The position numbers and the translations under genes were made by a program. A stretch of DNA of 64,000 nt. It comes from Taibaiella soli (GTDB lineage: Bacteria > Bacteroidota > Bacteroidia > Chitinophagales > Chitinophagaceae). Each line of letters starts with the position of its first letter. Position 1 is the stretch's first letter. Location of the stretch: the NCBI RefSeq assembly GCF_003236175.1, contig NZ_QKTW01000028.1:1-64000 (forward strand), written 5' to 3'. Below, one piece after another: positions 7,801 through 63,840 of the stretch. The notes below the pieces were generated by a model. The model was not told where the DNA came from, ran no database searches, and saw only the letters and a list, made by a program, of their open reading frames with translations.

Positions 7801-8020
7801 AAAATCAAAATTCAAAAATCAAAAGTCAAAAATGTTGAAGACTTCTTCGTGTTTGTCGACGGTAGGAGACATCCCGCGTAATGTGTATCCCACTCGCGTT
7901 TGTCATTCACTCATTCTCTTGCAGTTTGCTTCGTCCCTCGCAATGACGTAACGTGGGGTACTCACCACTGACCACTCACGAGTTACTTGTGTTTGTCATC
8001 CTGAGCGGAGTCGAAGGATT
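7801..8020. repeat. Mixed short interspersed repeats
   Basis: This gap is almost entirely repeat material. From 7801 to 7832 there is AATTCAAAAATCAAAAGTC-type simple sequence, whose T-rich strand is the coding strand of the gene starting at 7798. GTCGACGGTAGGAGACATCC (from 7855) belongs to a family also seen at 20506, 50699 and 51980. CTCGCGTTTGTCATT (near 7896) is the complement of a string at 52040-52060. GTCATCCTGAGCGGAGTCGA (from 7996) is a string I associate with dispersed repeats of Bacteroidota genomes. Confidence 0.7.
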
Positions 8021-8045
8021 AACACTTATGTTTTCCTCTTGGCAT

Positions 8046-8996
8046 TCATAACTGACACCTGATTGCGTCTGTGATCGCCCGCACTTTGTCCTTCAGCGCC
8101 TGCGGTTGTATAGGTATTGCAACATCCGCAAACATCATATACCAACGTGTAAAACCTTCCAGATACGGCGTCATAAAAGTCATTTCCACCCAGCCATTTT
8201 CCTCTGTCTGCGAAACAAAGCCGTTATTATATTTCTGCATTTCAATATGCGGCATCGCATCCTTGCGCACTTTAATGATGATCGTCTGCAGATCGTTCCG
8301 GTCTTTAAAATACTCTTTCAGGTAATCTTTCAGCGTCATGTGCTGTCTGGCGAATGATTCATCTGTAAGCATCAGCCGTGAAATACGATCCAGCCGGAAA
8401 TCGCGGTAATCGTTGCGCAGCTGGCAATAAGCGATCAAATGCCAGGCATTTTCAAAATAAACAACTCCTACTGGTTCTATATTTCTTTTGGAATGTTCCT
8501 GTTTGTAATTCGCAAAATAATGAATGGTGATCACGCGTTTTTCGCTCACGCTTTTCAATATCGCCTGCAATGCATTTTGCTCCGGTGGCTGTTGTTTTAA
8601 ATGCTTATTACGTTTGATGACCTCGATGTGGTTTTCAATATTTTCGAGGAAATCTTTTTCGGTTGAGCGAAGCACGGATTTGATCTTGTACATCGCCGAT
8701 TTGTAATTGTCCCCGTTTACAGGATCGGTTAGTTTCTCCACCAGTTTTTCCGCAGTGAGAAATGCCGTCGCCTCTTCTCGGGTAAACATTACCGGTGGCA
8801 GGCGGTAACCATCCATAATAGAATAGCCAATGCCCGTTTCGCCGATAATGGGAATGCCGGCTTCTTCCAGTGTTTTGATATCGCGGTAAACCGTACGCAG
8901 ACTGATTTCAAAGCGATCGGCAATATCCTGTGCCTTCACCACTTTTCGAGATTGTAACTGTATCAAAATAGCCGATATCCGGTCGATGCGATTCAT
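8046..8996 (-). CDS. YafY-type HTH/WYL-domain transcriptional regulator
   Basis: 316-aa regulator. An N-terminal DeoR-like helix-turn-helix (about 1-60, with VVKAQDIADRFEISLRTVYR and DIKTLEEAGIPI) is followed by the GYRLPPVMFT linker typical of YafY proteins. A WYL domain (about 150-230) contains NAWHLIAYCQLRNDYRDFRL, and a WCX-type C-terminus follows. WYL domains bind nucleic acid or nucleotide ligands and modulate DNA binding; the target here is unknown. The start ATG is followed by the expected MNRIDRISAIL. Upstream, on its coding strand, lies TTTTGAATTTTGACTTTTGA-type repeat DNA (9021-9050), a possible promoter component. It is probably monocistronic. Confidence 0.92.
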   Translation of the reverse strand: MNRIDRISAILIQLQSRKVVKAQDIADRFEISLRTVYRDIKTLEEAGIPIIGETGIGYSIMDGYRLPPVMFTREEATAFLTAEKLVEKLTDPVNGDNYKSAMYKIKSVLRSTEKDFLENIENHIEVIKRNKHLKQQPPEQNALQAILKSVSEKRVITIHYFANYKQEHSKRNIEPVGVVYFENAWHLIAYCQLRNDYRDFRLDRISRLMLTDESFARQHMTLKDYLKEYFKDRNDLQTIIIKVRKDAMPHIEMQKYNNGFVSQTEENGWVEMTFMTPYLEGFTRWYMMFADVAIPIQPQALKDKVRAITDAIRCQL

Positions 8997-9020
8997 CCTG
9001 CTAAATTACGGGAATGCAAA

Positions 9021-9050
9021 GTCAAAATTCAAAAGTCAAAATTCAAAAAA
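9021..9050 (-). repeat. (GTCAAAATTCAAAA)n simple repeat upstream of the WYL regulator
   Basis: Two near-perfect copies of a 15-bp unit (GTCAAAATTCAAAA plus flank) lie 25 bp upstream of the start codon at 8996. On the coding strand of that gene it reads TTTTGAATTTTGACTTTTGA, with a TTG every 7 or 8 bases. Confidence 0.8.
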
Positions 9051-9104
9051 GCCGCAAGACAATGGACAAGAGCAGTCTGCAACTGGAGGTTTTGACTATT
9101 TAAT

Positions 9105-9749
9105 TTATTCCGTCAATCCCATCTGCAGTGCAATTTTCACCAAAGCAACGGTATTCTTGGCGCCAAGTTTCTGGAGAATATTAAAACGGTGGTTTTCGAC
9201 GGTGCGTGGACTGAGAAAAAGCTTGTCGGCAATTTCCTGTGTGCTGCATTCGTCTACGATAAACTGAAGAATTTCTTTTTCGCGGCGCGTCAGTTTTTTG
9301 GGTGTATTACTTGTCGCTTTCTGATCGCGGATCATGAGATTAAGCACCTGATCTTTCACCGTCGGGTCGAGGAATAGTTTTCCGGAGGCGACTTCTTTTA
9401 CTGCTTCTACTAAGATCGGCTGACTGGTAGTACTTTTCAGCAGATAGCCCATACAGCCATGCTGCATCATTTCCCGGATTTGAAACGCAGAGCCTTCTCC
9501 CGAAAGAATCAGGATTCGTTGATCGGGGTATTGTTTGAGAATATTGAGGGCGAGATCACTGCCATTATTATCAGGCAGGTGGATGTCGAGCAGCAAAACA
9601 TCAGGTTGCTGATGTCTGAGTGCTTCAAGTAATTGTGCTCCGTTTGTATAGGTTCCGGTTACTTCAATGTCTTTATCCGCTTCCAGCGCTTCTTTTATAC
9701 CCTTGATGAGTAATAGATGGTCATCAGTAATGATTACCCTTATTGGCAT
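9105..9749 (-). CDS. NarL/FixJ-type response regulator
   Basis: 214-aa response regulator from ATG 9749 (MPIRVIITDDH). A further in-frame Met lies four codons upstream at 9761, but MPIRV is the usual start position. The receiver domain has the acidic pair DD at 8-9, the phospho-acceptor Asp at about 55 in VLLLDIHLP, and the switch Lys in YLLKSTTSQP. A LuxR-type helix-turn-helix at about 148-210 contains LTRREKEILQFIVDECSTQE and SPRTVENHR. Its first 26 bases overlap the 3' end of the histidine kinase gene, which indicates translational coupling and makes the two a cognate pair. Confidence 0.95.
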   Translation of the reverse strand: MPIRVIITDDHLLLIKGIKEALEADKDIEVTGTYTNGAQLLEALRHQQPDVLLLDIHLPDNNGSDLALNILKQYPDQRILILSGEGSAFQIREMMQHGCMGYLLKSTTSQPILVEAVKEVASGKLFLDPTVKDQVLNLMIRDQKATSNTPKKLTRREKEILQFIVDECSTQEIADKLFLSPRTVENHRFNILQKLGAKNTVALVKIALQMGLTE

Positions 9750-11757
9750 AATTTGTTCCACTTAACAATGAATGAATTTCAAACTCAAGATAAACAGTAG
9801 TTCCGTTATTGTTTGATATATCTATTTGTCCGGCGAGTGAACGGACTCTTGTACGAATACTTTCCAGCCCCAGGCCTTGCTGAACGGCAGTGCGGGAAAT
9901 CCCGATGCCGTTGTCTTCAACGGTAATGCCCAGCAGGCCATTCCAACAACTGATCTGCACCAGTATTTCCGTTGCCTCTGCATGTTTCACCACATTCTGC
10001 AGTAGTTCCTGCACCATCCGGTAAAGCGACAGGCTTACTTCTGGCGGCAACGAGGGGACGGTTCCTTCCTGCTGAAAATCAATATCGATTGCACAGCTTT
10101 TTCTGAGCTTATCACAGAAAATAGCCACCGCATTGTTGAGCCCGCTTTGTAAAACAGCATCAGGAATAAGGTTGTGGGCCATTTTTCGAACTTCGGTTGC
10201 AGTATCGTCGAGCTGCGTAAGTGTATCGTTAAGTTCGTCTGGCTGAATGCCTTTTTCGTTGCGATTGCGCAACATGTTGAGCCCAAGTTTTATGGTAAGC
10301 AATTGACTGACTACACCATCATGAAGTTCTTTTGCAAGACGGCTTCTTTCAGATTCTTCGCCTTTAATCTGTGCCCGTAACTGGCTTATTTCTTGAGTTT
10401 GCCGCAGGTTATTGATTAATGATTCCTGCAACAGACGAGCTCTTTTGAAATTCCGGTAGAAGCTGATCATCGCTGCAACAAGCAATCCCGATATAATGGT
10501 CACGGCCCATATCCAGATATTTCGCTGACGGATACCGTTTTCTTGTCGTTCCAGAACCAATTGTTGTTGTGCAAGCTGCTTATCTTTTTCAGAAGCTTTA
10601 TACTTGGAATCCAGCTCGTAACTCAGTTGTTTGTTGTCTGCGTTATCAAGACTATCGGCGAGCATATAGCTTCGGTCCATGTATTGGAATGTGGATACGG
10701 CATCGCCGGATTGCGCGGCAATTTTTCCCAGCAAATAATTAAGTACCTGCTGATGGCATGCATAACCCGTTGCCTGGGCCTGCTGTAAAGCATCCGTCAG
10801 GTAAGGTTTGGCAGCAGCATATTTTTTCAGATCAATCAGTGTCGCGCCGTAATAAAGATGGGCACTTATGGCAAGATAGCTTGGTAGCTGTTTGTCATTG
10901 GCTATCACATCACTTAAATAAGCGATGGCTTTTTCTGGTTGATGGTTGCGTTGGTAATAATTACCGATGTTGACCGCTGCTGTTTGCGTCTGGATTTTAT
11001 CGCCCAGTTTGCGCGCCAGTTGAAATGAACGATCGTAATAAGTCAGCGCTTTTGCAGAGTTGGGGTGAATAGACGAATAAAATCCGCCCCAGTTATTCAG
11101 AATCCGGATCAGCGAAATCGTATCATGATTTGCCAGCGCTTCTTTTTCTCCATGCTGTAAATAAAACAGCGCCTGATCTTCCTGCTTCATGGCAATCCAC
11201 AAACAGCTGATGTTTGTGTATAGCTGAGACTTGGCCTTCGGACTCATCATATTGCTGGTTTCAATTTCCTGCAATGCTTTGTAATAAAAATAGGCTGCCT
11301 GCGGATATTGACTTCTGAAATAATAATAACTGCCCAGTTCGTTGTATATTTTTCCTTTTAATCCCCGATCGTTGGAAAGTCTGATGGAATACAACAGTGA
11401 GCGTTCTGTATAATATAATGTGCTGTCGTAAATACCTTTCATCCGGTAGAAAGCCGCTATGCGAAGGAAGCTATAGGCAATGCCATAGTTGTAGGCACCC
11501 GCCTGACTGGCGATCAGTGCCTCGCGGTGAAAAAGCAATGCGCTGTCTGAAGCTTTGAATTCATACTTTTTCCCTTGCTCTATCAATTGTAAAATAGCGG
11601 TAGTATCCGGTGCAAACCGGTAACTCACACCTTCTTTAAGGGGCGTGCCGGACTGGCCGCGAACGAAAAAAGGAACCAGCAGAAACAAATAGAGTACTGC
11701 GGACAATCTCCGGAACGCTGCCGGAAAAAGGGGTCTTATGGATATTGGTCCCGTCAT
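9724..11757 (-). CDS. TPR-containing NarX-type sensor histidine kinase
   Basis: 677-aa kinase. A signal sequence (LSAVLYLFLLVPFFVRGQ, about 18-35) exports a long periplasmic region (about 40-400) of helical tetratricopeptide-like units such as AYSFLRIAAFYRMKGIYDST and GKIYNELGSYYYFRSQYPQA. One membrane helix follows (IWIWAVTIISGLLVAAMI). The cytoplasmic part has a HisKA_3 dimerisation domain with phospho-acceptor in ELHDGVVSQLL, then HATPase motifs QELLQNVVKHAEA, VEDNGIGI and GLGLESIR. TPR sensors of this kind are common in Bacteroidota and probably sense a protein or peptide partner. The gene overlaps its response regulator and is divergent from two large T9SS cargo genes, which could be its targets (inference only). 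Confidence 0.93.
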   Translation of the reverse strand: MTGPISIRPLFPAAFRRLSAVLYLFLLVPFFVRGQSGTPLKEGVSYRFAPDTTAILQLIEQGKKYEFKASDSALLFHREALIASQAGAYNYGIAYSFLRIAAFYRMKGIYDSTLYYTERSLLYSIRLSNDRGLKGKIYNELGSYYYFRSQYPQAAYFYYKALQEIETSNMMSPKAKSQLYTNISCLWIAMKQEDQALFYLQHGEKEALANHDTISLIRILNNWGGFYSSIHPNSAKALTYYDRSFQLARKLGDKIQTQTAAVNIGNYYQRNHQPEKAIAYLSDVIANDKQLPSYLAISAHLYYGATLIDLKKYAAAKPYLTDALQQAQATGYACHQQVLNYLLGKIAAQSGDAVSTFQYMDRSYMLADSLDNADNKQLSYELDSKYKASEKDKQLAQQQLVLERQENGIRQRNIWIWAVTIISGLLVAAMISFYRNFKRARLLQESLINNLRQTQEISQLRAQIKGEESERSRLAKELHDGVVSQLLTIKLGLNMLRNRNEKGIQPDELNDTLTQLDDTATEVRKMAHNLIPDAVLQSGLNNAVAIFCDKLRKSCAIDIDFQQEGTVPSLPPEVSLSLYRMVQELLQNVVKHAEATEILVQISCWNGLLGITVEDNGIGISRTAVQQGLGLESIRTRVRSLAGQIDISNNNGTTVYLEFEIHSLLSGTNYANKGNHY

Positions 11758-11945
11758 TAATTTTGGGGAGGTTCAGCTAAATATAAGTATTTATACCTAT
11801 AAACCTGCGCTTTTACTCATTTTCTAAATTGAGTAACGGCACGCTTACATAACAATAGGACAGCAGATAATTTTGATAAGGTTGGTAAATGGTGATAACA
11901 AACCGTTTAGCACCACTCTAAATGTACCTGCAAAGCTGTGTTCCG

Positions 11946-14015: not shown

Positions 14016-14064
14016 AACCCTTCTGTTCATTTTTTTTCATTTAAACTACTTAAACAATCCGCTT

Positions 14065-25274: not shown

Positions 25275-25366
25275 CCGCGGATTAATAACTGAGATGGCTG
25301 ACCTTAATTGAATTCGGCCGCAAAGATGAAGGAATTTTCTTTATGAAAGCATTAAATATGGGCAAT

Positions 25367-25410
25367 GATGAATGGTCAATGGTGAATGGTCAAACGTGAA
25401 AAGTCAAATA
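25367..25410 (-). repeat. TTG-periodic simple repeat upstream of the porin gene
   Basis: ATGAATGGTCAATGGTGAAT and then GGTCAAACGTGAAAAGTC: degenerate 7- to 8-bp units. On the porin's coding strand it reads TTTGACTTTTCACGTTTGAC and then CATTCACCATTGACC, about 95 bp upstream of the start codon. Confidence 0.75.
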
Positions 25411-25443: not shown

Positions 25444-25793
25444 TATACCAATTGACCATCAAAAAAAGCACGGTTAATTGTGTAAAGATGGATTTACGGA
25501 ACACGACCGGCCTAAGGAAACGTAGGCGTTAAAAAATGAAATGCATACAGCGTCCGCAATTATGATGGTGAACAGAAGCAACACAGATCAATTATAGAAT
25601 GGCCAGGAAGGGGTATAAAGCCGCATAGTAAGCTTTAATAATTGCAGCGAAATGCCTTTTCATTTTAGCCGTAGTTTCCTTAAGCCTTGAACTTTTGGTT
25701 ACTTTTGCTTCAAGGCAAAAGTGACAGAAAACACTTCTGTAAAATTGATTTAGCGGAAAATTTTAATCTCGTTTTTGAAGTTCAATTGGTATA
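25444..25793. mobile_element. MITE-like element with perfect 12-bp terminal inverted repeats
   Basis: TATACCAATTGA at 25444-25455 and its exact complement TCAATTGGTATA at 25782-25793 bound a 350-bp non-coding block. Inside, 25508-25563 and 25632-25690 are imperfect inverted arms (for example CCTAAGGAAACGTAGG against the complement of CCGTAGTTTCCTTAAG). The hairpin ACTTTTGC/GCAAAAGT (around 25700-25722) also occurs. An 87-bp version with the same ends lies at 57166-57252. The outermost TA could be a target-site duplication. Confidence 0.8.
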
Positions 25794-42485: not shown

Positions 42486-44615
42486 ATGAAGCTGAATAAA
42501 TATGTATTGCTCGCCGCAGCCGGAGTATTGGCCTTGCAGCCAGCGATAGCGCAAAAGAAGAATTTTACGATTGCTGAAGCTACCAATGGCATGACTACTA
42601 CATTGGCACCGAAAGCGATTAAACAGGGCAGCTGGCAGCCGGGAACCAATAATTTTTTCCAGGTAGCAAATAATGCATGGGTAAGAACTGCTTATCCATC
42701 CATGAAAACGGATACGGTATTGTCTGCTGATTTTCTGAAAACCGACAGCATGAAAGCTTTCCCGACAATGAACTGGGCCGGTAATAATGTGTATTTCCAG
42801 AATGGTGATCATTTGTTTGTTGGCAAGATGAGCGATGGTAAAATCAATTGGAACAAAAAGGCTTTGCCAGAAAACGCGGAGAATGTATTTGTTGATAAAA
42901 CTACAGGCGCTGTAGCATTCACGAAAGACAATAATCTTTATTTGCTGTCGAACGACCAGCCCGTGCAGATTTCTCACGACGCGGATCCTGCGATTGTGAA
43001 TGGTAAATCCGTACACCGCGATGAATTCGGTATCGACCACGGTATTTTCTTTTCTCCGAAAGGTACGTTGCTAGCGTATTACAGAATGGACCAGCGTAAC
43101 GTGAAAGATTATCCGGTAATTGACTGGAGTGAAGTTCCTGCCAAGAACAACAACATCAAATACCCGATGGCAGGTGGTCCTTCTCATGAAGTGACCCTGA
43201 ATGTTTTTAACCCTGCTACTAACAATACGGTGACACTCAAAACCGGTGAACCTAAAGATCAATATCTGACTGGTGTAACCTGGAGTCCGGACGAAAAATA
43301 TATTTTCATTTCGGTGCTTAACCGCGACCAGAATCATCTTTGGTTAAATCAATATGATGTTGCAACAGGTGAAAAGGTAAAAACGCTTTTTGAAGAAACG
43401 GATTCGAAATACGTGCATCCTGAACATGGTATTAGCTTTCTGCCGGGCAGCAACGACCAGTTTATTTTCTGGAGCAATAAAGATGGTTTCAAACATCTGT
43501 ACCTCTATAACACAGACGGAAAGTTGGTTCGCCAGATCACAAAAGGTAGCTGGGAAGTCAATGAGATCGTTGGTTTCAATAAAGACAAAAGCCTGGTGTT
43601 GATTACGGCTGCAAAAGAATCTCCGTTGGAGAAACATAGCTATGCTGTAAACTGGAAAAGCGGCAATATGACACGCCTGGATAAGGAAGCGGGTATGCAT
43701 ACTGTGAGCGCAAGCGAAGATGGTAAATACATTTTTGATGTATTTAACGGTGCGGGTATTCCGAAGAAAAGTATGCTGCGCAGCGTGGATGGCAAGAAGG
43801 AAACGGTGTTGATTGATGCGCCCAATACATTGGCTGATTTTGATCGTCCGGAAATAAAAAATATTACGCTGAAAGCTGATGATGGTACGCCGTTGTACGG
43901 CAAACTGATTCTGCCTACGCATTTTGACAGCACGAAGAAATATCCGGTGATTGTTTATCTCTACAATGGTCCGAATGTGCAGATCGTACACAACCAATTC
44001 CCGGAAAGCGGCAATCTCTGGTATGAATATATGGCGCAGAAAGGGTATGTAGTATTCACGATGGATGGCCGTGGCAGCAGTAATCGTGGTATGGCATTTG
44101 AACAGGCTACGTTCCGTAAATTGGGTACTGTAGAACTGAATGATCAGCTGAAAGGTGTGGATTATCTGAAATCATTGAAGTATGTGGACGCAGCGCGTAT
44201 GGGTATTCATGGCTGGAGCTTCGGTGGCTTTATGACTACGAGCATGATGCTGCGCAATCCTGATGTATTTAAATGTGCAGTAGCCGGTGGTCCGGTAATA
44301 GATTGGAAAATGTATGAAGTGATGTACACGGAACGTTACATGGATACGCCGCAGGACAATGCGCAGGGTTATGAAGATGCGAATCTGCTGAGCAAGGTGA
44401 AAAACCTGAAAGGTAAGCTGATGCTGATTCACGGAACTAATGATGATGTGGTGGTTTGGCAGAACAGTATTAAATTCCTGAAGAAATGTGTAGATGAAAA
44501 TGTGCAGGTAGATTATTTCGTTTATCCGGGTCATCCGCATAACGTACGCGGCAAAGACAGAGTGCATCTGATGCAGAAGATTTCTGATTATTTTGATTTA
44601 TACCTGAAACCGTAG
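42486..44615 (+). CDS. S9 family peptidase (dipeptidyl peptidase IV type)
   Basis: 709 aa with a signal peptide (YVLLAAAGVLALQPAIAQ). Residues about 60-440 form the eight-bladed propeller (TGVTWSPDEKYIFISVLNRD, LPGSNDQFIFWSNKDGFKHL). The alpha/beta-hydrolase domain holds VYNGP-like PVIVYLYNGPN, nucleophile Ser in GIHGWSFGGFMTTSMM (near 578), Asp in HGTNDDVV (near 655) and His in YPGHPHNV (near 687). Such enzymes remove dipeptides from peptide N-termini in the periplasm or at the surface. Conserved Glu residues of the DPP IV substrate pocket were not checked in detail. A symmetric terminator follows. Confidence 0.94.
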   Translation: MKLNKYVLLAAAGVLALQPAIAQKKNFTIAEATNGMTTTLAPKAIKQGSWQPGTNNFFQVANNAWVRTAYPSMKTDTVLSADFLKTDSMKAFPTMNWAGNNVYFQNGDHLFVGKMSDGKINWNKKALPENAENVFVDKTTGAVAFTKDNNLYLLSNDQPVQISHDADPAIVNGKSVHRDEFGIDHGIFFSPKGTLLAYYRMDQRNVKDYPVIDWSEVPAKNNNIKYPMAGGPSHEVTLNVFNPATNNTVTLKTGEPKDQYLTGVTWSPDEKYIFISVLNRDQNHLWLNQYDVATGEKVKTLFEETDSKYVHPEHGISFLPGSNDQFIFWSNKDGFKHLYLYNTDGKLVRQITKGSWEVNEIVGFNKDKSLVLITAAKESPLEKHSYAVNWKSGNMTRLDKEAGMHTVSASEDGKYIFDVFNGAGIPKKSMLRSVDGKKETVLIDAPNTLADFDRPEIKNITLKADDGTPLYGKLILPTHFDSTKKYPVIVYLYNGPNVQIVHNQFPESGNLWYEYMAQKGYVVFTMDGRGSSNRGMAFEQATFRKLGTVELNDQLKGVDYLKSLKYVDAARMGIHGWSFGGFMTTSMMLRNPDVFKCAVAGGPVIDWKMYEVMYTERYMDTPQDNAQGYEDANLLSKVKNLKGKLMLIHGTNDDVVVWQNSIKFLKKCVDENVQVDYFVYPGHPHNVRGKDRVHLMQKISDYFDLYLKP

Positions 44616-44616: not shown

Positions 44617-44672
44617 CGGTGAATAGTCAATGGCGAATGGTCAATGTTTGTGAAACGTCAAACGTCAAAAGT
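44617..44672. repeat. TTG-periodic simple repeat between convergent genes
   Basis: GTGAATAGTCAATGGCGAAT, then GGTCAATG and CGTCAAACGTCAAAAGTC: the same word family as 1166, 25367 and 57092, directly after the S9 peptidase stop codon. Confidence 0.75.
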
Positions 44673-44673
44673 C

Positions 44674-44709
44674 AAAAAATCCCGGTCACATTGTGGCTGG
44701 GATTTTTTT
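44674..44709. terminator. Bidirectional intrinsic terminator
   Basis: AAAAAATCCC and GGGATTTTTTT form a long outer stem, with an inner CAC-ATT-GTG. It serves the S9 peptidase gene on the plus strand; the A-run makes it usable from the other side. Confidence 0.88.
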
Positions 44710-48839: not shown

Positions 48840-48841
48840 AC

Positions 48842-49057
48842 TATTTGAGATTTAATATTTGTGATTGAAGATTGATCGCCGATGTGGAAACACCTTTTTT
48901 ATTTGAGATTTAATATTTGTGATTGAAAATTGACTGCTAATGTGGAAACACATTTATCACATTAAAACGCATTCACCACATCATCATTACCGCATTGTCG
49001 CATTATCGGATTGTCGTATTAAAACACATTCATCACATTAAACACATTCACACATTC
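48842..49057. repeat. 58-bp tandem duplication followed by CACATT repeats
   Basis: TATTTGAGATTTAATATTTG begins at 48842 and again at 48900, so a 58-bp unit is duplicated. From about 48949 to 49057 follow CACATTAAACACATTCACAC-type words and CGCATTATCGGATTGTCG. On the other strand these match AATGTGTGAATGTGTTTAAT words downstream of 50430. The repeats fill the gap between the DUF1573 and pepT genes. Confidence 0.82.
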
Positions 49058-49084: not shown

Positions 49085-50338
49085 CTACGCTTTTTCTTCC
49101 CAGATCTGCGCCAGATGCACGATTGTCTCTACTGCTTTTTCCATATCCTGTACACTCACATATTCTTGCTTAGAGTGAATGCCCATTTCGCCGGTGAAGA
49201 TATTCGGACAAGGTAAACCCATGAATGAAAGACGTGCGCCATCGGTACCACCACGGATGCTGATGCGTTTGGCCTGCATGTCAGCGCGACTGTACGCTTC
49301 TGCGGCGTAATCCATTACGCGCGGATGATGATCAAGCACTTCTTTCATATTGCGGTATTGTTCCTTGATGGTAAATTCTGCGTGAATACCCGGGAACATC
49401 GCAACGGTTTTATCAACCAGGCCTTTCAGACGTTGCTCGTGTGTGGCCAGTTTTGCAGTATCAAAGTCACGGATGATAAACTGAACAGTTGCTTTTTCCA
49501 GCATGCCTTCCATATGTACCGGATGTACAAAACCTTCCATGCCTTCGGTAAATTCAGGACCCCATTCGCCATGTGGCAGCATACTTACGAATGTACCGGC
49601 AGCTTTAATGGCATTCACCATTTTGCCTTTTGCATAACCAGGATGCGCGCTGATACCATTGAAGGTAACCATTACGGCATCCGCACTAAAATTTTCACCT
49701 TCGAGGTGACCGCGCTCTCCGCCATCCAGCGTGTAGCCGAAGTCAGCGCCCAGTTTTTTCATGTCTACTTTATTCACACCACGACCTACTTCTTCGTCTG
49801 GTGTAAACAGAATACGGATTTTGCCGTGTTTTACTTCCGGATGCTGGATGAGGTAATTAGCCAGATCCATGATGATTGCCACGCCCGCTTTATCGTCAGC
49901 GCCTAGCAGGGTTGTGCCGGATGCTGTGATGATATCGTCGCCGATGCGTTCCAGCAAGTATGGATGTTCGTTTGTATTAATTACCACCAACGGATCGTCT
50001 GGTAAAACAATCGGCTGACCGTTCCATTTTTCATGAAGGATTGGTTTTACACCAAAACCACTACAATCCGGTGCGGTATCTACGTGTGAGCAGAAGCATA
50101 AAACCGGTACATTTTCTTTTCCTGAAGTAGCCGGAATGGTGCCATACACATAACCATACTCGTCCAGTTCGGCATCAGAAACGCCAATTACTTTCAGTTC
50201 CTCCACCAGAATACGGCTCAGATCTTTCTGTTTTTCGGTAGAAGGCTGAGTCGGAGACGCCGGATCGCTTTGAGTATCAATCTGTACATAACGCATAAAG
50301 CGTTCAGTTACTGTATGTTTATAATTTGCTATCGACAT
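49085..50338 (-). CDS. pepT: Peptidase T (tripeptide aminopeptidase, M20B)
   Basis: 417 aa, normal length. Metal ligands lie in FCSHVDTAPD (H85 and D87), LLGADDKAGVAIIMDL (about 143-158, bridging Asp) and the catalytic-base motif LFTPDEEVGRGVNKVD (about 180-195). ISAHPGYAKGKMVNAIKA marks the dimerisation lid, and IRGGTDGARLSFMGLPCPNI with the final His region IHSKQEYV completes the zinc set. It removes the N-terminal residue from tripeptides in the cytoplasm. It is flanked on both sides by CACATT-type repeats and appears to be a single-gene unit. Confidence 0.96.
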   Translation of the reverse strand: MSIANYKHTVTERFMRYVQIDTQSDPASPTQPSTEKQKDLSRILVEELKVIGVSDAELDEYGYVYGTIPATSGKENVPVLCFCSHVDTAPDCSGFGVKPILHEKWNGQPIVLPDDPLVVINTNEHPYLLERIGDDIITASGTTLLGADDKAGVAIIMDLANYLIQHPEVKHGKIRILFTPDEEVGRGVNKVDMKKLGADFGYTLDGGERGHLEGENFSADAVMVTFNGISAHPGYAKGKMVNAIKAAGTFVSMLPHGEWGPEFTEGMEGFVHPVHMEGMLEKATVQFIIRDFDTAKLATHEQRLKGLVDKTVAMFPGIHAEFTIKEQYRNMKEVLDHHPRVMDYAAEAYSRADMQAKRISIRGGTDGARLSFMGLPCPNIFTGEMGIHSKQEYVSVQDMEKAVETIVHLAQIWEEKA

Positions 50339-50369
50339 GAAGAGAAATTTGCGCGTAAAAATAACCTTT

Positions 50370-50730
50370 AAATGGTTAACTGGGTAAATGGTTAATTGGG
50401 TAAATGGTTAAAGGGTTAATTCGTTGATGCGTGAAATGTGTGAAATGTGGTTTAATGTGTGAGATGTGTTTGCCCTAAGTCAGTAATAACATGTCACGTG
50501 GGAATGTGTGAATGTGGTTTAATGTGTGAAATGTGTTTGCTCCAAGTACGTAATAACATGTCACGTGGGGAATGTGTGAAATGTGGTTTAATGTGTGAGA
50601 TGTGTTTTACCCTGAGTACGTAATAGCATGCCACGTAGGGAATGTGTGAATGTGGTTTTAATGTGTGAAATGTGTTTGCTCCAAGTACGTAATAACATGT
50701 CGAGGGAAGGAGACGTCCCCGCGTAATAGG
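50370..50730. repeat. Tandem repeat array, 17-bp and 67-70-bp units
   Basis: TAAATGGTTAA-type 17-bp units run at 50370-50418. Then about four units of 67-70 bp follow, with TTTAATGTG anchors at 50451, 50518, 50587 and 50657. Each unit ends with a word like GTACGTAATAACATGTCACG; the CACGTG and ACATGT palindromes recur. The array ends in GTCGAGGGAAGGAGACGTCC (50699). The gap before 50860 holds no gene; a 66-codon minus-strand frame here is repeat translation. Confidence 0.9.
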
Positions 50731-52060: not shown

Positions 52061-52104
52061 CTGATTTAATGTCGTCCTGAATAGCCCTTTACGCGCTTTG
52101 GGTT

Positions 52105-52132
52105 TTGACTTTTGAATTTTGACTTACTTTTG
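52105..52132 (+). promoter_or_regulatory. Bacteroidota-type promoter of marC inside a TTTTGAATTTTGAC repeat
   Basis: TTG at 52105-52107, then 17 bp, then TACTTTTG at 52125-52132 fits the consensus TTG-N17-23-TAnnTTTG. The whole stretch TTTTGACTTTTGAATTTTGA is also a copy of the simple repeat found at 7801 and 9021. Start codon of marC is 40 bp downstream. Confidence 0.6.
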
Positions 52133-52172
52133 TAATGTTCCCGCATTTCTCACCCACTTACATTTTACGAAC

Positions 52173-54808: not shown

Positions 54809-54878
54809 TAGGTGATATTTAATACGCAAACACCTTGATTTGCCTTAGTGCTTCAAAAATTGGCTTTGAATCATATTT

Positions 54879-54987: not shown

Positions 54988-55085
54988 AAGCAGAGGGTCT
55001 TAAACTTGAACTCATGTTCAAAATGTGTCAAAGGCAAAAGCCGGATGTTTCGTTTTGGACTTGATAAAATGGGTTAGTTTTCGGC

Positions 55086-57038: not shown

Positions 57039-57091
57039 AGGCTATGTTTTTATGAGGAAAAATAATAATGCGAAGCTAGGCTAATTTGAGT

Positions 57092-57135
57092 GAACCGTCA
57101 ATGGGGAATGGTCAAGCTAAAGTCAAAATTAGGCT
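57092..57135 (-). repeat. TTG-periodic simple repeat upstream of the Omp28-like gene
   Basis: CCGTCAATGGGGAATGGTC and AAAGTCAAAATTAGG. On the coding strand of the gene starting at 57038 it reads TTTTGACTTTAGCTTGACC, about 55 bp upstream of the ATG. Confidence 0.65.
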
Positions 57136-57165
57136 GAATGCTTAAGGCGTAAAGCTGAAAGCTTT

Positions 57166-57252
57166 TATACCAATTAAAAGATGGATTTACGGAACACCAC
57201 CGGCCTAAGGAAACGTAGGCGTTAGGAAAATTTTTGAGGTTCAATTGGTATT
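57166..57252. mobile_element. 87-bp internally deleted copy of the MITE-like element
   Basis: TATACCAATT (57166-57175) and TCAATTGGTAT (57241-57251) are the same ends as the 350-bp element at 25444. The inner block 57178-57224 matches 25485-25531 with one difference. The right-arm half and the middle are missing. From 57295 to about 57345 the gap continues with CACATTAGTCACATTCACC-type repeats. Confidence 0.82.
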
Positions 57253-57382
57253 ATTGTTTCCCGTGCAAAAGCAAAAGTGTGGGAAAGCGCTGAATGCACA
57301 TTTCCCACATTAGTCACATTCACCACATTAATCACCAAATTTATAAACCCGCGCTGTGACGCGCCTCAGGGAGGCGGGGCAA

Positions 57383-60300
57383 CTATCGCACCAGCGTTAC
57401 GTCTCCTTTCTTAAAGTAAGTTTCATCAGACCCTTTCACCGTGTACTCGATCATCCAGTAGTAAGTATCCAGTTCACAAGCTTTGCCGTTGAAAGTTCCA
57501 TCCCATCCGTCGTTATTGAGATTGCTGACAAATACCCGTTGTCCCCAGCGGTTAAATACCGAAAGACTGATGACCCGAATATTAGGGTTGTCAGTGATGA
57601 TATGGAACACATCGTTACGGCCGTCGCCATTTGGTGAAAAGACATCGGGCAACCAGAGATCATGCGGAATATCTATTACGCTGATATGGTAAGTACAGCT
57701 GTCTTCACAATCGCCGTTACTCACCACGCAATGGTAAGTGACATTGCTGTTTTTCGCTTCATCAATTTTAAGCACCGGACAATTTGCGCAGATCAGTTGC
57801 CCGTCTTTGTACCAGTCCACTTTTTGTGCGGCGGCACATGGCGGCAACGCGATATTTGTATTGTAAGGAATCGAAAGTGTACTGTCCTTAAATGAGCTTA
57901 CTGGTTTACTGTTGACCGTCACCTGCATCGCCATGGAATCGCTGCCAGTGGCGTTAGATACGACCAGTTTTACAGGATAAGTACCCGCATTTGCATAGCA
58001 GATGGTGCCGGGTATCGGTGTGTTTGCGCTGGAAGGATTTCCGCCAGGGAAATACCAATGATAGTCCTGCGGGAATTGGCTTGCCTGCGCAGTTGGTTCT
58101 ATACAGTCGCCAGCGCAAATGATTTGCTGTGGCAGGTTCATATAGTCTACTACGGGTCTGCAGAATGAAACTTTGGTGGTGTCATAAATGGTGCCGCAAG
58201 GTGTTTCTACCTTCACCCAATATGTACCTGCCTGCGTTATAGTTATCGACGATGATGTAGCGCCGGTGCTCCATTCGACATTGCTGTACAAAGAACCAAC
58301 ACTAAGCGATATTTCACCATTTTGATTACATACAACGGTGTCTGCAGGAAGATGCAGCAGGTAATCGGCAAGCGTGTGGATGGTCATGCTGTTGGTGAAA
58401 GTGCCACAGGCATTTGTAGCACTTACCCAATACGTGTTAGGTGCTGTTACCGTAATCTGCTGTGTAGTAGCTCCGGTAGACCAAGTGTAACTGGAAAATC
58501 CAGGGCCTGCAGAAAGTGTAATAGCAAATGGGTTTTGATTGCAGATCAGTGTGTCATTTGGCAGATGTACCGCATTTGGTAACAACGTCACGGTAACGGG
58601 TCCGGCGCTTGCCGAAGGGCAATAAGCGGAACTCACAGTAACGGTATATGAACCGGTGTCATTAGCGAGGTATGTGCTGGCATTACTGTTGGGAATTGCT
58701 GTGCCATTGTGCTGCCATACATAGGTGTAGCCTGCTACAGCCGGAGTGCCGAGTGTTACTGATCCACCGGGACAAATGCTTTGCGGGGTCGATGGACTTA
58801 TATTCGCCGTAGGTAATGGATGCACCGTTAATAAATAAGAATTGGATGTTATGGTACATCCGTTGTTAGCAACATCGGCGGTATAGGTACCGCTTTGATT
58901 GGCTTCAATTGTAGATTGCGTTGCACCGCTAATTACTACGCCGTCGCGTTTCCAGACATAAGTATAAGCAGGATCCGCATTGGTTTGTAACAGCACAGAA
59001 TCATTCGCGCAGATATCATGTGTTGCGCCCGTAATCGTTGCTGTTGGCGGCGGTACAATTGTCAGTGCGACGGATACAGACGTTGTATCCGGGCAATAGC
59101 TACCATTTCCGACCGTCACTTTATAAGTACCTGCGGTAGTTGCTACATAAATATTTGCGGTAGCTGCCGGAATTACAGTTCCATTTTGCAGCCAGATATA
59201 AGTGCAGGAATTGCAAGCTGGCGTGCTGAAGTTTACGGAGTTGCCAGTACAGATAGTTTGTGCCGTTGCCGGGCTGATATTTGCTATTGGCGCAGCGTGT
59301 GCCGTTAGTGTAAATACTGCTGATGTAATGCTGCATGCTCCGTTGGAAGCGGTTACGGTATAACTGCCTGTTGCATTGACACTGTAAGATGATTGCGTAG
59401 CACCCGGAATAGTCACGTTGTTGTTTTTCCAGACATAGCTGTAAGTCGCGCTGGTATCTGTTTGTAGCAATACCGAAGCATTGGTGCAGATATCATGTGT
59501 GGTGCCGGTAATAGTTGCCGTAGGCACCGGGAGTACATTTATCGGCACCGGTACCGATGCCACATCAGGGCAAATAGCGCCATTGCCAACGACTACACTA
59601 TAGGTGCCGGTTGTATCTGCGGTAAAAGTATTTGCGGTAGCTCCGGGAATTGCCGTGCCATTTTGCAGCCAGGTATAAGTGCACGAATTACATACTGGTG
59701 TGCTGAAATTTACGGAGTTGCCAGTACAAATAGTTTGCGCTGTTGCAGGACTGATATTTACTGTAGGTCCGGTATGTGTTGTAATTACAAATGCGGCAGA
59801 TGTAGTGTTACAAGCTCCGTTTGAGATTGTGACTGTATAACTGCCTGTTGCATTGACACTGTAAGATGATTGCGTAGCACCTGGAATAGCTACGTTGTTG
59901 TTTTTCCAGACATAGCTGTAAGTCGCGCTGGTATCTGTTTGCAGCAATACCGAAGCATTGGTGCAGATATCATGCGTGGTGCCGGTAATAATTGCCGTAG
60001 GCACCGGGAGTACATTTATTGGCACCGGTACTGATGTCACATCAGGGCAAATAGCGCCATTGCCAACGACTACACTGTAGATGCCGGTTGTGTCAGCGAT
60101 AAAAGTATTTGCGGTTGCTCCGGGAATTGCCGTGCCATTTTGCAGCCAGGTATAGGTGCACGAATTGCACACCGGCGTGCTAAAGTTTATGGAGTTGCCA
60201 GTACAGATAGTTTGTGCTGTTGCAGGACTGATATTTACTGTAGGTCCGGTATGTGTTGTAATTACAAATGCGGCAGATGTAGTGCTACAAGCCCCGTTTG

Positions 60301-63300
60301 AGATTGTGACTGTATAGCTGCCATTTGTGTTTGCATTGTAAGATGATTGCGTAGCACCCGGAATAGCTACGTTGTTGTTTTTCCAGACATAGCTGTAAGT
60401 CATGCTGGTATCGGTTTGCAGCAATACTGAAGCATTGGTGCAGATATCATGTGTAGCTCCTGTGATGGTTGCTGTTGGTGCTGGTAATACGTTGAGATTT
60501 ACTGATGGTGCCGTTACACTCGGACATGGTGCACTGTTTACGGTTACCGTATAGCTGCCGGTGGTTCCAGCTGTATAAGTATTGTTTGCCGCGTTCGTTA
60601 TTGCAGTATTGTTCAGTTGCCAGGTATATGTACAGCCGGTACAAGCAGGCGTGTTAAAATACACGCTGTCTCCTGCGCATTTAGTTTGGGTGGATGATGG
60701 CGTTAATGCTACTGTTGGGTTAGTATGAACGGTAACTGGATAGGGTGCAGAGACCGCGGCGCAACCAGCGTTTGTTACTGTAACCTGGTAGATTCCTGTC
60801 TGGGTTGCGGTAAATGTATTGCCATTAACGCCAGGCGCGGTAGTTCCGTTTTGTATCCAGGTATAGACATAACCGGAGCCTGTATCGGTTTGCAATAGCA
60901 CCGATGTGCCGGTGCAGACATCATTTGCACTGCCGATAAGATTAGCGGACGGCGGTGTTATATTGGAAACAGTCACTTCGGAAGAAGTCGATTGGCAAAT
61001 GCTTGTAGGCGCTGTTACCTTATAAACGCCAGGTGTATTGGCAATAAATATGGCGGTAGTAGCTCCGGGAATAAGTATACCGTCCTTATACCATTGGTAG
61101 GAGGGGAGCGTAATCGGCATTGCAAACAATGTGGTACTGTCGCCAATGCATATTTTCAAACGGGATGAGAGTATTCTTACCGAGTCGGCAAACGAGTAAT
61201 AGAATGAATCAAGTCCAGGTGTTTTACAGCCTGTTAAAGAATCAATAGCTACGGGACGATAAGTTCCGTCGGGAATTTGTGGATGTATGGAGTTTAAACT
61301 ATCGGATGGCCATGTTACATAATAGGAAATCGTGCCGTATTTGTAATACCAGCTATACTGACAGGCTGGAGCAGGGTTTGATACACTGAGTACTAAGGGA
61401 GGTCCGCAGTTTACGGTGAGCTGAGGCGCAGGAGGCACCGCATTTAAAACAAGGATTGTACTATCCGTTAGCGACTGTCCGCAAGACGGCGTGGTGATAG
61501 TGACATAGTACACGCCTGTATTTTGTACTCCTGCATTCTGAATGACTGGTTGTTGCAGATTGGAGGTAAAACCATTTGGTCCCGTCCAGGAGTAAGTGGC
61601 GCCAGGGAGATAGATGGCGCTCAGTTGAACAGTGCCGGCTTGACAGGCTACGTATTGGCTGGCCGAAGCAAGTCTTGCAATAGAAAGGTCGAGTATCTTG
61701 ATTTGCTGTACAGCCGAAGCGCCGCAGGAGTCAACTATTTTAAGATCGTACACATCATTTGCATTCCCGCCGAAATTGGTAAATACCCCGGTTGTATTGC
61801 TAGTGATATAAGGACCGGTCAAACCATTTCCTGCGTGTGCCAGGTAATATTGATACTGATTGCCTGCATAGGGCAGGCCGTTTTTACCCTGTATATATAT
61901 TTTACCCTGTCCGGTGGCGGCGTTGCAGGCAAAACCTTGCGTGAAGTTCATGTCAACCTGCACCGGATTTACTGAGTATGTAAATGTATAAGAATTCACA
62001 TAAGCATTGGGGCCAGGCCAAAAATTAGAATTGTAGTTGCTCGATTGTGAACTGTAGGGCACAATAGTGTATTGGCCAGGTATCGTCAGCAATAGCGAAT
62101 CGCCGGGAACAAGTTCCGTGGCAATGCCCAGGCTGCTGCCCCGATATACCGCAAATTTCAAAGGTGCGGTCGTTCCATTAGTCGTAGCGGTTCCTTTAGG
62201 CCAGATCCAAAGACCCTGACAGGTTTGTTTTTGATGATCAATGCCGGCGGTGTACTGGTAAAGATCTTGTGGACCTACCGTTATTGGCAAAAAATAGGTG
62301 CCACAGACATCGGTGATTTTCCAAACATAGTTACCCGCCGGAAAGAGGTCGGTTCCAGGAAGTGCAGGGGTTGCGTTGCTCGACAATATCTCAGAGGGAT
62401 AATTGTACCAGGGATAATTATAATAATATCCGGGTGGACCGCTAAATAACTGAATGTTCCTTCCCTGTACATTTACAGACGCCGTGAATTTGAAATAGTT
62501 AATGTAATTATTGAATCCTACCGCACCATTATTGATACTTACACTGTAGGGGCTTGCTGGAATGGTGGTACTGCTGAATGAGCTTGTGGCGGTTGCACCA
62601 TCTGCTGAGGTGCAGGTAACCGTATATGCTCCCGCAGGTAAATTGGAGATGTGCGCGCTGATTCCGCCCATCGGGAACGGTCCGAATGTGGTGCCGGCGG
62701 CGTTGGTGTACGTATAGGTAATCGGGAGGCAAAGCATTCCTGCACCCAGATCAACGTCAAACGTGCTGCATGCCTGGGTAATGTAATAACCGACATAAGG
62801 ATATGGGAGGCTTGTTATTTTTTGCCAGTCGGGGCCGCAAGGCGCATGAAAAGTGCAGATGATGGTAGCACCGTAGCAATCCTTCACAGAGAAACCTGGA
62901 TTCAGTGCGATATATTTTGAGCCTGTGTTGATGCCATAGTAAGGAGTGGGATTAAATGCGTTGTTTGAAATAGATAGCGACACTTTAATAGATGTATCGC
63001 TGACATATCCACTCCAAAAACTATTGTTATCATTAGTAGATGGGAGATCAAAACGGATTGCATCGCAGGATGCGACAGTGGGATTAAGCGCGTAAAGCGG
63101 CATTGACGATGGGGCAAACGACGTTACGGTATAAGTGTTGGGTGCTGTACTGCTGCCACAGGCGTCAGTACAAAAATAAGTATAGCTGCCACCGGGCACA
63201 TTACTAAATGTAGTCGTTGGTGCAGTCGTCGTAACTGTAGTCTGTCCGGTATATCCGATCGGCCAGCTGGTCAAATGAAAAGTATATGGACCGAAACCTT

Positions 63301-63736
63301 TTTGCACCGAAATCTGAAGTGTTCCGGTCGGCATACAGTCAAAAGATGGCCTAGAAGCTACACCCGTTGCAACAGGCGGCTGGTAATTGCCCGGCACTAT
63401 AGTAGTTGTATTTTTACCAACTTGGGTGCCGCCGCAAGTTGCAACTGCACTGACTGTATAAGTACCGGGTGGGATACCGCCGAAATTCGGCGAATTATTC
63501 AATGCGACTGAATAGCCATTCGTTAGTGGAATACCATATTGGATATTAGTAAGATTCGCAGAATCCGGACCTGAGACGGTCAGGGAAAAAGTGGCATTAG
63601 AAGCGCAGGTCGCTGCTGTAACTAATTGTGTTGATATCGACCAGTTATTACACTGCGCCTTTCCTTTAAAGCTGATGACTGCAGCAAAAAGAAATAGCAA
63701 AACGGATTTGATCCGGATGGGTATAGAACGTAACAT
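57383..63736 (-). CDS. Giant T9SS type B protein with tandem Ig-like repeats
   Basis: 2117 aa from ATG 63736, which begins a signal peptide (MLRSIPIRIKSVLLFLFAAV); the frame extends 16 codons upstream into simple-repeat DNA. The N-terminal 800 residues are Gly/Tyr/Pro-rich segments recurring as SxxxPAGxYTV or VPGGSYTYFCTDACG units. From about 800 to 1850 come Ig-like domains of 75-85 residues with a C-x-x-x-S/T start and Y-x-W core (SYVWKNNNVAIPGATQSSY). A pair of domains repeats with an exact 477-bp period between about 59009 and 60440. A PKD domain (YHWYFPGGNPSSANT) and a type B sorting domain follow (FSPNGDGRNDVFH, VFNRWGQRVFV, DGWDGTFNGK, and GDVTLVR at the end). It is probably a surface adhesin. 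Confidence 0.93.
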   Translation of the reverse strand: MLRSIPIRIKSVLLFLFAAVISFKGKAQCNNWSISTQLVTAATCASNATFSLTVSGPDSANLTNIQYGIPLTNGYSVALNNSPNFGGIPPGTYTVSAVATCGGTQVGKNTTTIVPGNYQPPVATGVASRPSFDCMPTGTLQISVQKGFGPYTFHLTSWPIGYTGQTTVTTTAPTTTFSNVPGGSYTYFCTDACGSSTAPNTYTVTSFAPSSMPLYALNPTVASCDAIRFDLPSTNDNNSFWSGYVSDTSIKVSLSISNNAFNPTPYYGINTGSKYIALNPGFSVKDCYGATIICTFHAPCGPDWQKITSLPYPYVGYYITQACSTFDVDLGAGMLCLPITYTYTNAAGTTFGPFPMGGISAHISNLPAGAYTVTCTSADGATATSSFSSTTIPASPYSVSINNGAVGFNNYINYFKFTASVNVQGRNIQLFSGPPGYYYNYPWYNYPSEILSSNATPALPGTDLFPAGNYVWKITDVCGTYFLPITVGPQDLYQYTAGIDHQKQTCQGLWIWPKGTATTNGTTAPLKFAVYRGSSLGIATELVPGDSLLLTIPGQYTIVPYSSQSSNYNSNFWPGPNAYVNSYTFTYSVNPVQVDMNFTQGFACNAATGQGKIYIQGKNGLPYAGNQYQYYLAHAGNGLTGPYITSNTTGVFTNFGGNANDVYDLKIVDSCGASAVQQIKILDLSIARLASASQYVACQAGTVQLSAIYLPGATYSWTGPNGFTSNLQQPVIQNAGVQNTGVYYVTITTPSCGQSLTDSTILVLNAVPPAPQLTVNCGPPLVLSVSNPAPACQYSWYYKYGTISYYVTWPSDSLNSIHPQIPDGTYRPVAIDSLTGCKTPGLDSFYYSFADSVRILSSRLKICIGDSTTLFAMPITLPSYQWYKDGILIPGATTAIFIANTPGVYKVTAPTSICQSTSSEVTVSNITPPSANLIGSANDVCTGTSVLLQTDTGSGYVYTWIQNGTTAPGVNGNTFTATQTGIYQVTVTNAGCAAVSAPYPVTVHTNPTVALTPSSTQTKCAGDSVYFNTPACTGCTYTWQLNNTAITNAANNTYTAGTTGSYTVTVNSAPCPSVTAPSVNLNVLPAPTATITGATHDICTNASVLLQTDTSMTYSYVWKNNNVAIPGATQSSYNANTNGSYTVTISNGACSTTSAAFVITTHTGPTVNISPATAQTICTGNSINFSTPVCNSCTYTWLQNGTAIPGATANTFIADTTGIYSVVVGNGAICPDVTSVPVPINVLPVPTAIITGTTHDICTNASVLLQTDTSATYSYVWKNNNVAIPGATQSSYSVNATGSYTVTISNGACNTTSAAFVITTHTGPTVNISPATAQTICTGNSVNFSTPVCNSCTYTWLQNGTAIPGATANTFTADTTGTYSVVVGNGAICPDVASVPVPINVLPVPTATITGTTHDICTNASVLLQTDTSATYSYVWKNNNVTIPGATQSSYSVNATGSYTVTASNGACSITSAVFTLTAHAAPIANISPATAQTICTGNSVNFSTPACNSCTYIWLQNGTVIPAATANIYVATTAGTYKVTVGNGSYCPDTTSVSVALTIVPPPTATITGATHDICANDSVLLQTNADPAYTYVWKRDGVVISGATQSTIEANQSGTYTADVANNGCTITSNSYLLTVHPLPTANISPSTPQSICPGGSVTLGTPAVAGYTYVWQHNGTAIPNSNASTYLANDTGSYTVTVSSAYCPSASAGPVTVTLLPNAVHLPNDTLICNQNPFAITLSAGPGFSSYTWSTGATTQQITVTAPNTYWVSATNACGTFTNSMTIHTLADYLLHLPADTVVCNQNGEISLSVGSLYSNVEWSTGATSSSITITQAGTYWVKVETPCGTIYDTTKVSFCRPVVDYMNLPQQIICAGDCIEPTAQASQFPQDYHWYFPGGNPSSANTPIPGTICYANAGTYPVKLVVSNATGSDSMAMQVTVNSKPVSSFKDSTLSIPYNTNIALPPCAAAQKVDWYKDGQLICANCPVLKIDEAKNSNVTYHCVVSNGDCEDSCTYHISVIDIPHDLWLPDVFSPNGDGRNDVFHIITDNPNIRVISLSVFNRWGQRVFVSNLNNDGWDGTFNGKACELDTYYWMIEYTVKGSDETYFKKGDVTLVR
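59009..60680 (-). repeat. 477-bp tandem repeats within the giant Ig gene
   Basis: The anchor GCAGATATCATG occurs at 59009, 59486, 59963 and 60440, and TTGCCAGTACA at 59241, 59718 and 60195: exactly 477 bp (159 codons, two Ig domains) apart. The unit 59486-59962 and the next one are almost identical, while the outer ones have diverged. Confidence 0.93.
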
Positions 63737-63763
63737 AGGTGTTTGATTAGGTAATAAGCGCTG

Positions 63764-63840
63764 CAAATTTAATTCAAAATTCAAAATTTACCCCAGCCCT
63801 AAAGGGCGTTTTACTCGCGTCGTGACTCCCCTTCAGGGAT
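63764..63840. repeat. TTTTGAATTTTGAA repeat with -7-like box, and CCCTAAAGGGCG repeat
   Basis: On the minus strand TTTTGAATTTTGAATTAAAT precedes the giant Ig gene and includes TAAATTTG (63764-63771), a -7-like box 28 bp from the ATG. Next to it, ACCCCAGCCCTAAAGGGCG (63790-63808) belongs to the family at 41167 and 45515. CTCCCCTTCAGGGATGAGGG follows, downstream of the last gene. Confidence 0.6.

Follow-up and report, generated by a model that had tools for sequence, protein, structure and literature searches.

Short tandem heptamers are known from the cyanobacteria under the name STRR, and the REP and REPIN elements associated with RAYT are built as an inverted pair of fixed polarity around a spacer. 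The subject of the present work is a set of tandem repeats with a unit of seven bases that lie between the genes of Taibaiella soli (Bacteroidota; Chitinophagaceae), starting from those in a stretch of 64,000 nucleotides, positions 1 to 64,000 of contig NZ_QKTW01000028.1 (assembly GCF_003236175.1), which we call the window. These arrays resemble the STRR in general description, as short tandem heptamers. An earlier note on the window had taken the tracts for TTG-periodic, promoter-like repeats standing in a fixed orientation directly upstream of genes; we report their survey in T. soli and in three species of Pinibacter, and offer a different account of them.

The closest described repeats are the intergenic G-rich heptamers of Rehm et al. 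(2015), GGGAATC in Xanthomonas and GGGGA(C/T)T in Nostoc, which occur in 2-26 units, are discussed as G-quadruplex formers and, in the portions of that report available to us, are without a function found (PMC4692102). The same portions describe inverted pairs with members on opposite strands, 70 of them in one Xanthomonas, 75 in a second and few in Nostoc, an under-representation of the repeats between divergent genes, some overlap with stop codons, and a G-strand that is the coding strand just after stops and the non-coding strand just before starts; Calothrix heptanucleotides are mentioned as well (PMC4692102). Compared with these passages, the arrays described here are alike in being intergenic, in their unit of 7 nt and in following the same placement rule relative to stops and starts. 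Inverted pairs like those of Xanthomonas predominate in Pinibacter (121 inverted, 5 direct); in T. soli pairing is weak (25 inverted, 24 direct). They differ in that their words are AT-rich and without G-tracts, in that several word families occupy one genome, and in that we see spacers inverted and replaced between species and arrays that end at -7 boxes.

A second comparison is with the TAACTGA direct repeats of Beggiatoaceae, Cyanobacteria and five Bacteroidetes (MacGregor 2015; PMC4679880), which likewise form heptamer arrays beside genes, are sporadic across the same phyla and in some cases overlap stops. As far as the available part of that paper describes them, the TAACTGA repeats stand mostly in forward orientation before start codons and are almost never inverted (one case), whereas the present arrays are symmetric with respect to the gap and favour stops. 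No earlier description of AT-rich inverted heptamers in Bacteroidota was found among the titles and abstracts surveyed in the open-licence literature, and the present finding extends the known heptamer repeats to AT-rich words, to the flipping of spacers and to ends at -7 boxes.

Heptamer arrays and their placement in gaps

The survey of T. soli covered 1.66 Mb (1.6 Mb in stretches plus the window) of the 5.38 Mb genome, with 1068 intergenic regions amounting to 291,768 bases; genes were called with a simple hexamer model, so that starts are approximate. Period-7 arrays number 102 in the intergenic DNA; a single dinucleotide shuffle yielded 0, and coding sequence contains 4. Period 7 is the dominant intergenic period, periods 14 and 21 being its echoes, and no other period reaches more than 18 arrays (18 at periods 8 and 22). 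In the whole genome the pattern TTTTGAATTTTGA has 98 exact matches, overlaps counted, compared with 6 for the reversed pattern. The tracts are thus real and common in T. soli, far above chance expectation, and to this extent the TTG-periodic repeats of the earlier note stand; their unit, though, is a heptamer drawn from several word families, among them TTTTGAC, CATTCAC, AACTTAT, AGCTTTA and CTTGATA, and several words hold no TTG at all. By eye, the main words TTTTGAC, CATTCAC, AATTAGG and TTGAAAA contain no run of three G, and since the same anatomy is found without G-tracts, G-quadruplex formation cannot be its general cause. In another genome surveyed, G000, the region of one heptamer array (C10 74196-74303) contains a run of N, perhaps an assembly gap.

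With the 6 arrays that could not be oriented left out, the T-rich strand of 73 of the remaining 96 points to the nearest gene boundary, be it a start or a stop (p = 3e-7). Where that boundary is a start, the T-rich strand is the coding strand in 43 of 53 arrays; where it is a stop, the T-rich strand is non-coding in 30 of 43. The strand of the nearest gene as such shows no bias in the 1.66 Mb tabulated (56/96, p = 0.13), a result by which the proposed fixed orientation relative to genes falls on the earlier note's own terms. In all six of the cases that it had named, the T-rich strand does coincide with the coding strand, and these are one half of a symmetric rule that concerns the edges of the gap; the two counter-cases that it had listed downstream of genes (1166-1211 and 44618-44677 in the present coordinates) exist and fit the rule, because beside a stop it is mostly the non-coding strand that is T-rich.

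The same polarity is evident from composition. Scored as purine-rich in the left half of the gap or pyrimidine-rich in the right half, 84 of 100 arrays conform, compared with 53% of control windows at matching positions in array-free gaps (p = 1e-10); in Pinibacter the figures are 224 of 278 arrays and 58% of controls. Stricter scoring of G against C in T. soli gives a weaker result, with 44/69 in codirectional gaps (p = 0.03), 11/16 in divergent and 11/17 in convergent ones. Read on either strand, the purine- or G-bearing word forms the 5' arm and its reverse complement the 3' arm.

Arrays lie particularly close to stop codons. An array is found within 10 bp of the stop at 28 of 103 stop flanks in T. 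soli and within 10 bp of the start at 11 of 101 start flanks, and for the outer edges of Pinibacter pairs the corresponding counts are 102 of 134 and 14 of 108. The period continues through the stop codon itself in 67 of 197 near-stop arrays of Pinibacter, where the word supplies the stop (TTGA, TTAG, GTAA, ACTGA), and in 7 of 53 arrays of T. soli. Array densities per kb are 0.39, 0.24 and 0.35 in the codirectional, divergent and convergent gaps of T. soli, and 1.51, 0.99 and 2.95 in those of Pinibacter; convergent gaps are therefore as rich as divergent ones or richer, which counts against promoters, as these should favour divergent gaps.

The consensus promoter of the Bacteroidota consists of a -33 TTG and a -7 TAnnTTTG. 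Whole upstream regions with arrays contain no excess of the latter (24/79, against 216/873 without arrays; p = 0.28), yet the motif lies inside the array or up to 12 nt past it in 15 of the 79, where 7.4 are expected and 1 of 200 draws was as high. When motifs starting from -5 to +12 of the array's 3' end were counted for T-rich arrays that face a start, they were found in 10 of 61 arrays of T. soli (2.0 in a position-matched control) and 17 of 170 of Pinibacter (3.1), several of the latter being orthologues of one another; 0 of 200 control draws was as high in either genome set. The excess persists outside the array at +4 to +12 (5 against 1.1 in T. soli, 13 against 1.5 in Pinibacter) and is gone at 13-30 nt from the array end (1 against 1.5 and 3 against 2.3), and the A-rich arrays show no clear effect (2/29 against 0.7 and 0/116 against 2.5). 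The copy at marC, described previously as perfectly spaced from TACTTTTG, is real and is one of the ten cases in T. soli. In our reading the -7 box bounds the array on its outer side, much as the stop codon does at the opposite end of the gap.

Paired arms and changing spacers in Pinibacter

The Pinibacter set comprises the genome G009 and two further species of the same genus, G059 and G060. Among 394 arrays in 0.8 Mb, matching arrays that share a gap form 98 inverted and 8 direct pairs, and in a larger set (1.14 Mb, with a limit of 400 bp) there are 121 inverted and 5 direct pairs, arranged around a spacer that is specific to the locus. Of the 121 inverted pairs, 112 have a left arm rich in purines. 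An 8-mer family, AATAACTG, behaves as the heptamers do, with inverted arms at dozens of places in G059 and G060 (for example L116 9515-9608).

Beyond this genus, TTTTGACTTTTGA is abundant in four of 59 genomes (G000, 224 matches; G003, 135; G009, 155; G016, 73), the other 55 having 0-6. A search for the arrangement TCAAAAGTCAAAA-N8-38-TTTTGACTTTTGA gave 36 matches, which fall at 34 places distributed over six genomes, the Pinibacter places being partly orthologous; the reverse arrangement gave 0. In the phylum as a whole the exact TTTTGAC pair is rare: of 395 genomes, 2 carry it, and none carries its arms in the reverse order. Among the matches listed, the pair is found in Chitinophagaceae, other Bacteroidota, many cyanobacteria, Ignavibacteria, Herpetosiphon, a Spirochaetales bacterium and others. 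For the cyanobacteria a predominance of inverted pairs is not seen: with 34 of 80 listed loci examined, 19 loci gave, besides the search pair, 10 inverted and 13 direct pairs.

The spacers change between the Pinibacter species, whose flanks at the loci compared have median identities of 87.8-90.8%. Where both of the species compared have a pair (69 comparisons), 36 spacers are kept, 3 are inverted, 29 are without similarity and 1 is ambiguous. The inverted ones lie at 226987, 245668 and 320692 of the joined G009 stretch, and a fourth inversion, in a separate numbering, is at 173571. In an initial comparison of 40 spacers, which preceded this paired test, 7 were kept and 2 inverted, the other 31 being replaced or ambiguous. 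Words may also change in both arms at one site, as at 173571 (TTGAAAA and TTGAGAG) and at 135917 (TTGAAAA and the 8-mer AATAACTG). Insertions and deletions of at least 7 nt comprise whole units in 21 of 35 cases within Pinibacter arrays and in 177 of 884 outside them, which bears out the suggestion that the repeat is expanding. At two places (G9a 86418 and 109446) the contents of the gap differ wholly between sister species, for example a AATAACTG pair in two of them and an inverted repeat of the CACAGATGACACGGATT type in the third.

Tracts of the window and neighbouring repeats

Repeats in the window were located with Tandem Repeats Finder and by reading of the raw letters, and are collected in the table below. 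Two inverted pairs can be identified among them, 1166-1211 with 1265-1278 and 9018-9048 with 9090-9104. The claim that tracts stand directly upstream of six genes is borne out in part. Tracts are present at 7801-7833, 9018-9048, 25358-25408, 52103-52125 and 63771-63788, the third of these being more than 80 bp from the start at 25274 and so not directly upstream of it, and what precedes 57038 is a degenerate TTG-type stretch, the clear array there being a 9-mer. The start given as 63736 is uncertain, since the open reading frame (ORF) opens at 63784, which the tract straddles, and the hexamer gene caller chose 63700.

Table. Repeat tracts of the window, with the strand assigned to each and its relation to neighbouring genes.
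Position	Strand	Feature	Remarks
1166-1211	-	Heptamer array, TCAATGG on +, 6.6 copies	Left (A/G) arm; 1 base past stop of gene ending 1164
1265-1278	+	CACCATTGACCATT	Short inverted partner of 1166-1211; spacer 53 bp; score above shuffle threshold
7801-7833	-	AAAATCA/AAAGTCA array on +	Left arm; 2 bases ahead of start of gene 6722-7798(-); no partner found
7960-7979	+	ACTCACC/ACTGACC array	Right-type word; shares gap with 7801-7833, different word
9018-9048	-	AAAGTCAAAATTCA array on +	Left arm; start 8996 at 21 bases
9090-9104	+	TTTTGACTATTTAAT	Short inverted partner of 9018-9048; abuts stop of gene 9105-9761(-); only 2 points above shuffle threshold
25358-25408	-	TGAATGGTCAAACG-type array on +	Left arm; start 25274 at 83 bases; no partner found
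44618-44677	-	GGTCAAT then AAACGTC arrays on +	Just past stop of gene 42486-44615(+); convergent gap; no partner found
52103-52125	+	TTTTGACTTTTGAATTTTGAC	Right arm; start 52173 about 47 bases downstream
52125-52132	+	TACTTTTG, possible -7 box	At 3' end of array
57097-57129	-	Degenerate GTCAATGG/AAGTCAAA stretch	Upstream of 57038(-)
57297-57335	+	CACATTAAC 9-mer array	Right-type; shares gap with 57097-57129
63771-63788	-	AATTCAAAATTCAAAATT, 2.6 copies	Near 5' end of ORF 57383-63784(-)

Several other repeats were noted in the same DNA. A MITE-like element with the inverted ends ATACCAATT/AATTGGTAT is present at 57167-57251 and 25445-25792, its shared 42-bp core (57183-57224 and 25490-25531) occurring 10 times in the genome when up to 3 mismatches are allowed. 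The 2133-codon ORF 57383-63784(-) encloses a 477-bp tandem repeat of 2.7 copies at 59152-60454. Gene 49085-50338(-) is flanked at 48842-49057 and 50369-50701 by repeats of 58 bp (two copies), 70 bp (3.9 copies) and 8/9-mers (CACATT / AATGTGTGA), and CTGAGCGGAGTCGAAGGAT, at 8001-8019, is of a dispersed palindromic type with variants in other gaps of T. soli and in Pinibacter.

A proposed gap filling by slippage and template switching, and the alternatives

We propose, with moderate confidence, that the heptamer arrays are growing gap fillers of fixed polarity, formed by slippage of units together with template switching between arms. Replication slippage would lengthen an array in steps of 7 nt until a selected sequence, the stop codon or the -7 box, is reached, and a DNA polymerase that switches template between the two arms would flip the spacer. 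Flipped spacers are the expected product of template switching between inverted arms, and changes by whole units that of slippage. Template switching with inversion of the spacer between inverted repeats (quasipalindrome mutagenesis) has been documented in yeast (PMC8604942). The likeness to that system, in the part of the paper available, is the inversion of the spacer between arms; the differences are that the arms here are tandem heptamers and that homogenisation of arms is not detected. The arrays of the window would then mostly be unpaired or decayed members of the paired type.

Loss of the hairpin nuclease SbcD was tried and rejected as a permissive cause. Matches above the cut-off are found in 8 of 39 genomes and in none of the array-rich G000, G003, G009 and G016 (G003 has a sub-threshold match), an absence that does not discriminate because, when 20 array-poor members of the family were searched, 17 had none either.

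A number of observations weigh against our proposal. Pairing is poor in T. soli itself, where no partner is found for 53 of the 102 arrays and the rest divide almost evenly between inverted (25) and direct (24) partners, and where a stricter count gives 6 inverted and 12 direct pairs. The polarity is strong, yet it is without a mechanistic account, and it has exceptions, namely 9 of 121 left arms in Pinibacter that are not purine-rich and two T-first pairs at the cyanobacterial locus L210. The spacer inversions are few, and the far more numerous spacers without similarity are not explained by template switching inside one locus. Neither is inversion specific to the arms, since 105 array-free controls gave 96 kept, 5 inverted and 4 dissimilar segments. 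The five inverted controls (two at one locus, two marginal) all come from gaps that contain inverted repeats built of other words; these too flip, and spacer flipping is therefore a wider habit of Pinibacter genomes. Exact 28-mers are common to arms across 28 of 62 loci and 18-mers are common to spacers at 4 of 62, and such sharing of arms with hardly any of spacers looks like dispersal. Homogenisation of arms would be visible as a closer match within a locus than with same-word arms elsewhere, and the two values are 23.1 and 23.3 in G9, with a like outcome in G59 and G60. The adjacency to -7 boxes could also mean that arrays act as upstream promoter DNA. Replacement of spacers and dispersal of words need something more, either ectopic exchange between arms of the same word or mobility, and the proposal leaves the spread of words between loci and the setting of polarity unexplained. 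As an observation on the control gaps in their own right, those at 213636 and 115338 of the joined G009 stretch carry the inverted repeats GAACGCAGATTTTCATGATTG and GCTCCTACGGAGC with inversion of the spacer between species.

It seems to us rather unlikely that the arrays are instead selected 3'-end elements, the paired arms of which make a hairpin just past the stop codon that stabilises the mRNA or aids termination from both sides. Such a function would suit the abutment of pairs on stops, the enrichment in the convergent gaps of Pinibacter and the A-arm/T-arm order, which for TTTTGAC words resembles a bidirectional terminator, and it would suit the arms that stay largely complementary when their word changes between species (173571, 180888 and 136571). 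The spacers are long, however, and not specially structured, with z below -2 in 20 of 86 compared with 16 of 86 controls (86 of the 98 pairs tested, limited by length), and a terminator hairpin in the spacers was rejected on this count. Half of the T. soli arrays are unpaired, words such as GTAGCCG and GTTGTTA are not U-tracts, and the sporadic occurrence of the exact TTTTGAC pair in the phylum also speaks against selected gene-end elements.

The dispersal of arms invites comparison with mobile DNA, REPIN- or MITE-like, whose transposase would copy arm pairs to new gaps, an explanation that we find unlikely. REPINs have a fixed polarity comparable to that of the heptamer pairs, arms are identical over 28 bases at many loci, and one word can replace another at the same site, as at 135917. 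The spacers, on the other hand, differ among loci, and when empty sites were sought as a guide to insertion boundaries, none of the six large insertions found was a clean insertion of a whole arm pair; two of them are array growth. By eye the arms are tandem words and not hairpins as in REP/REPIN, and most of the words lack GTAG; the Y1 transposase domain, carried by 29 of 39 relatives, bears no visible relation to the number of arrays, which makes RAYT/Y1 a doubtful driver. Two further candidates were abandoned, a shared core of the spacers, the commonest spacer 10-mers (of the CACAGAAAGC type) being found in only 4 of 98 spacers, and copying of the 8-mer family as whole elements, its arms aligning and most of its spacers, beyond the orthologue, failing to do so.

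That the repeats are promoter-like, offering several -33 TTG boxes whose number is tuned by slippage, as the earlier note had it, we hold to be distinctly unlikely. The coding orientation of the T-rich strand before starts is what this idea predicts, and the -7 motif does stand at the edge of a minority of the start-facing arrays, which is the part of the idea that survives. Where the motif is preceded by a TTG of the array at a spacing of 21-24 nt, in 5 of the 10 cases in T. soli, the number is close to the chance of about 4 in 7 that a TTG every 7 bases affords. In Pinibacter there is none in the 17 arrays at -7 boxes, 14 of which are without any TTG, and the adjacency to the -7 motif is seen also with array words that hold no TTG; a supply of alternative -33 boxes is not supported. 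Against it stand also the opposite strand next to stops, the lack of an overall bias to the gene's strand, the richness of convergent gaps and the preference for stop flanks.

Binding sites for a regulator, as proposed for the TAACTGA heptamers of Beggiatoaceae in the accessible part of the source, would agree with arrays that adjoin genes and with the like spread to Cyanobacteria and Bacteroidetes (PMC4679880), but are highly improbable given many words with one anatomy per genome, arrays at both gene ends and words that change at orthologous sites.

A more speculative reading we put forward as a long shot. In several phyla, Bacteroidota, Cyanobacteria and others, a process indifferent to the word may write heptamers of fixed polarity onto the two ends of an intergenic segment, beginning within the stop codon and reaching as far as the following -7 box, and may allow the segment to be flipped or swapped. 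The T/C word lies 3' on each strand, as if an unknown polymerase had made both ends by templated 3' addition, and the G-rich heptamers already described would represent one dialect of this process.

AT-rich words that have the same placement, polarity and inverted pairing make the anatomy of heptamer arrays separable from G-quadruplex formation, and point to a mutational or gene-end cause. Arrays that extend between a stop codon and the -7 box that follows it show which intergenic bases are dispensable. A T-rich tract ahead of a Bacteroidota gene is, by the same evidence, not always a promoter and should be read with caution. With spacers flipped and swapped between sister species, these gaps constitute a testable bacterial hotspot for template switching.

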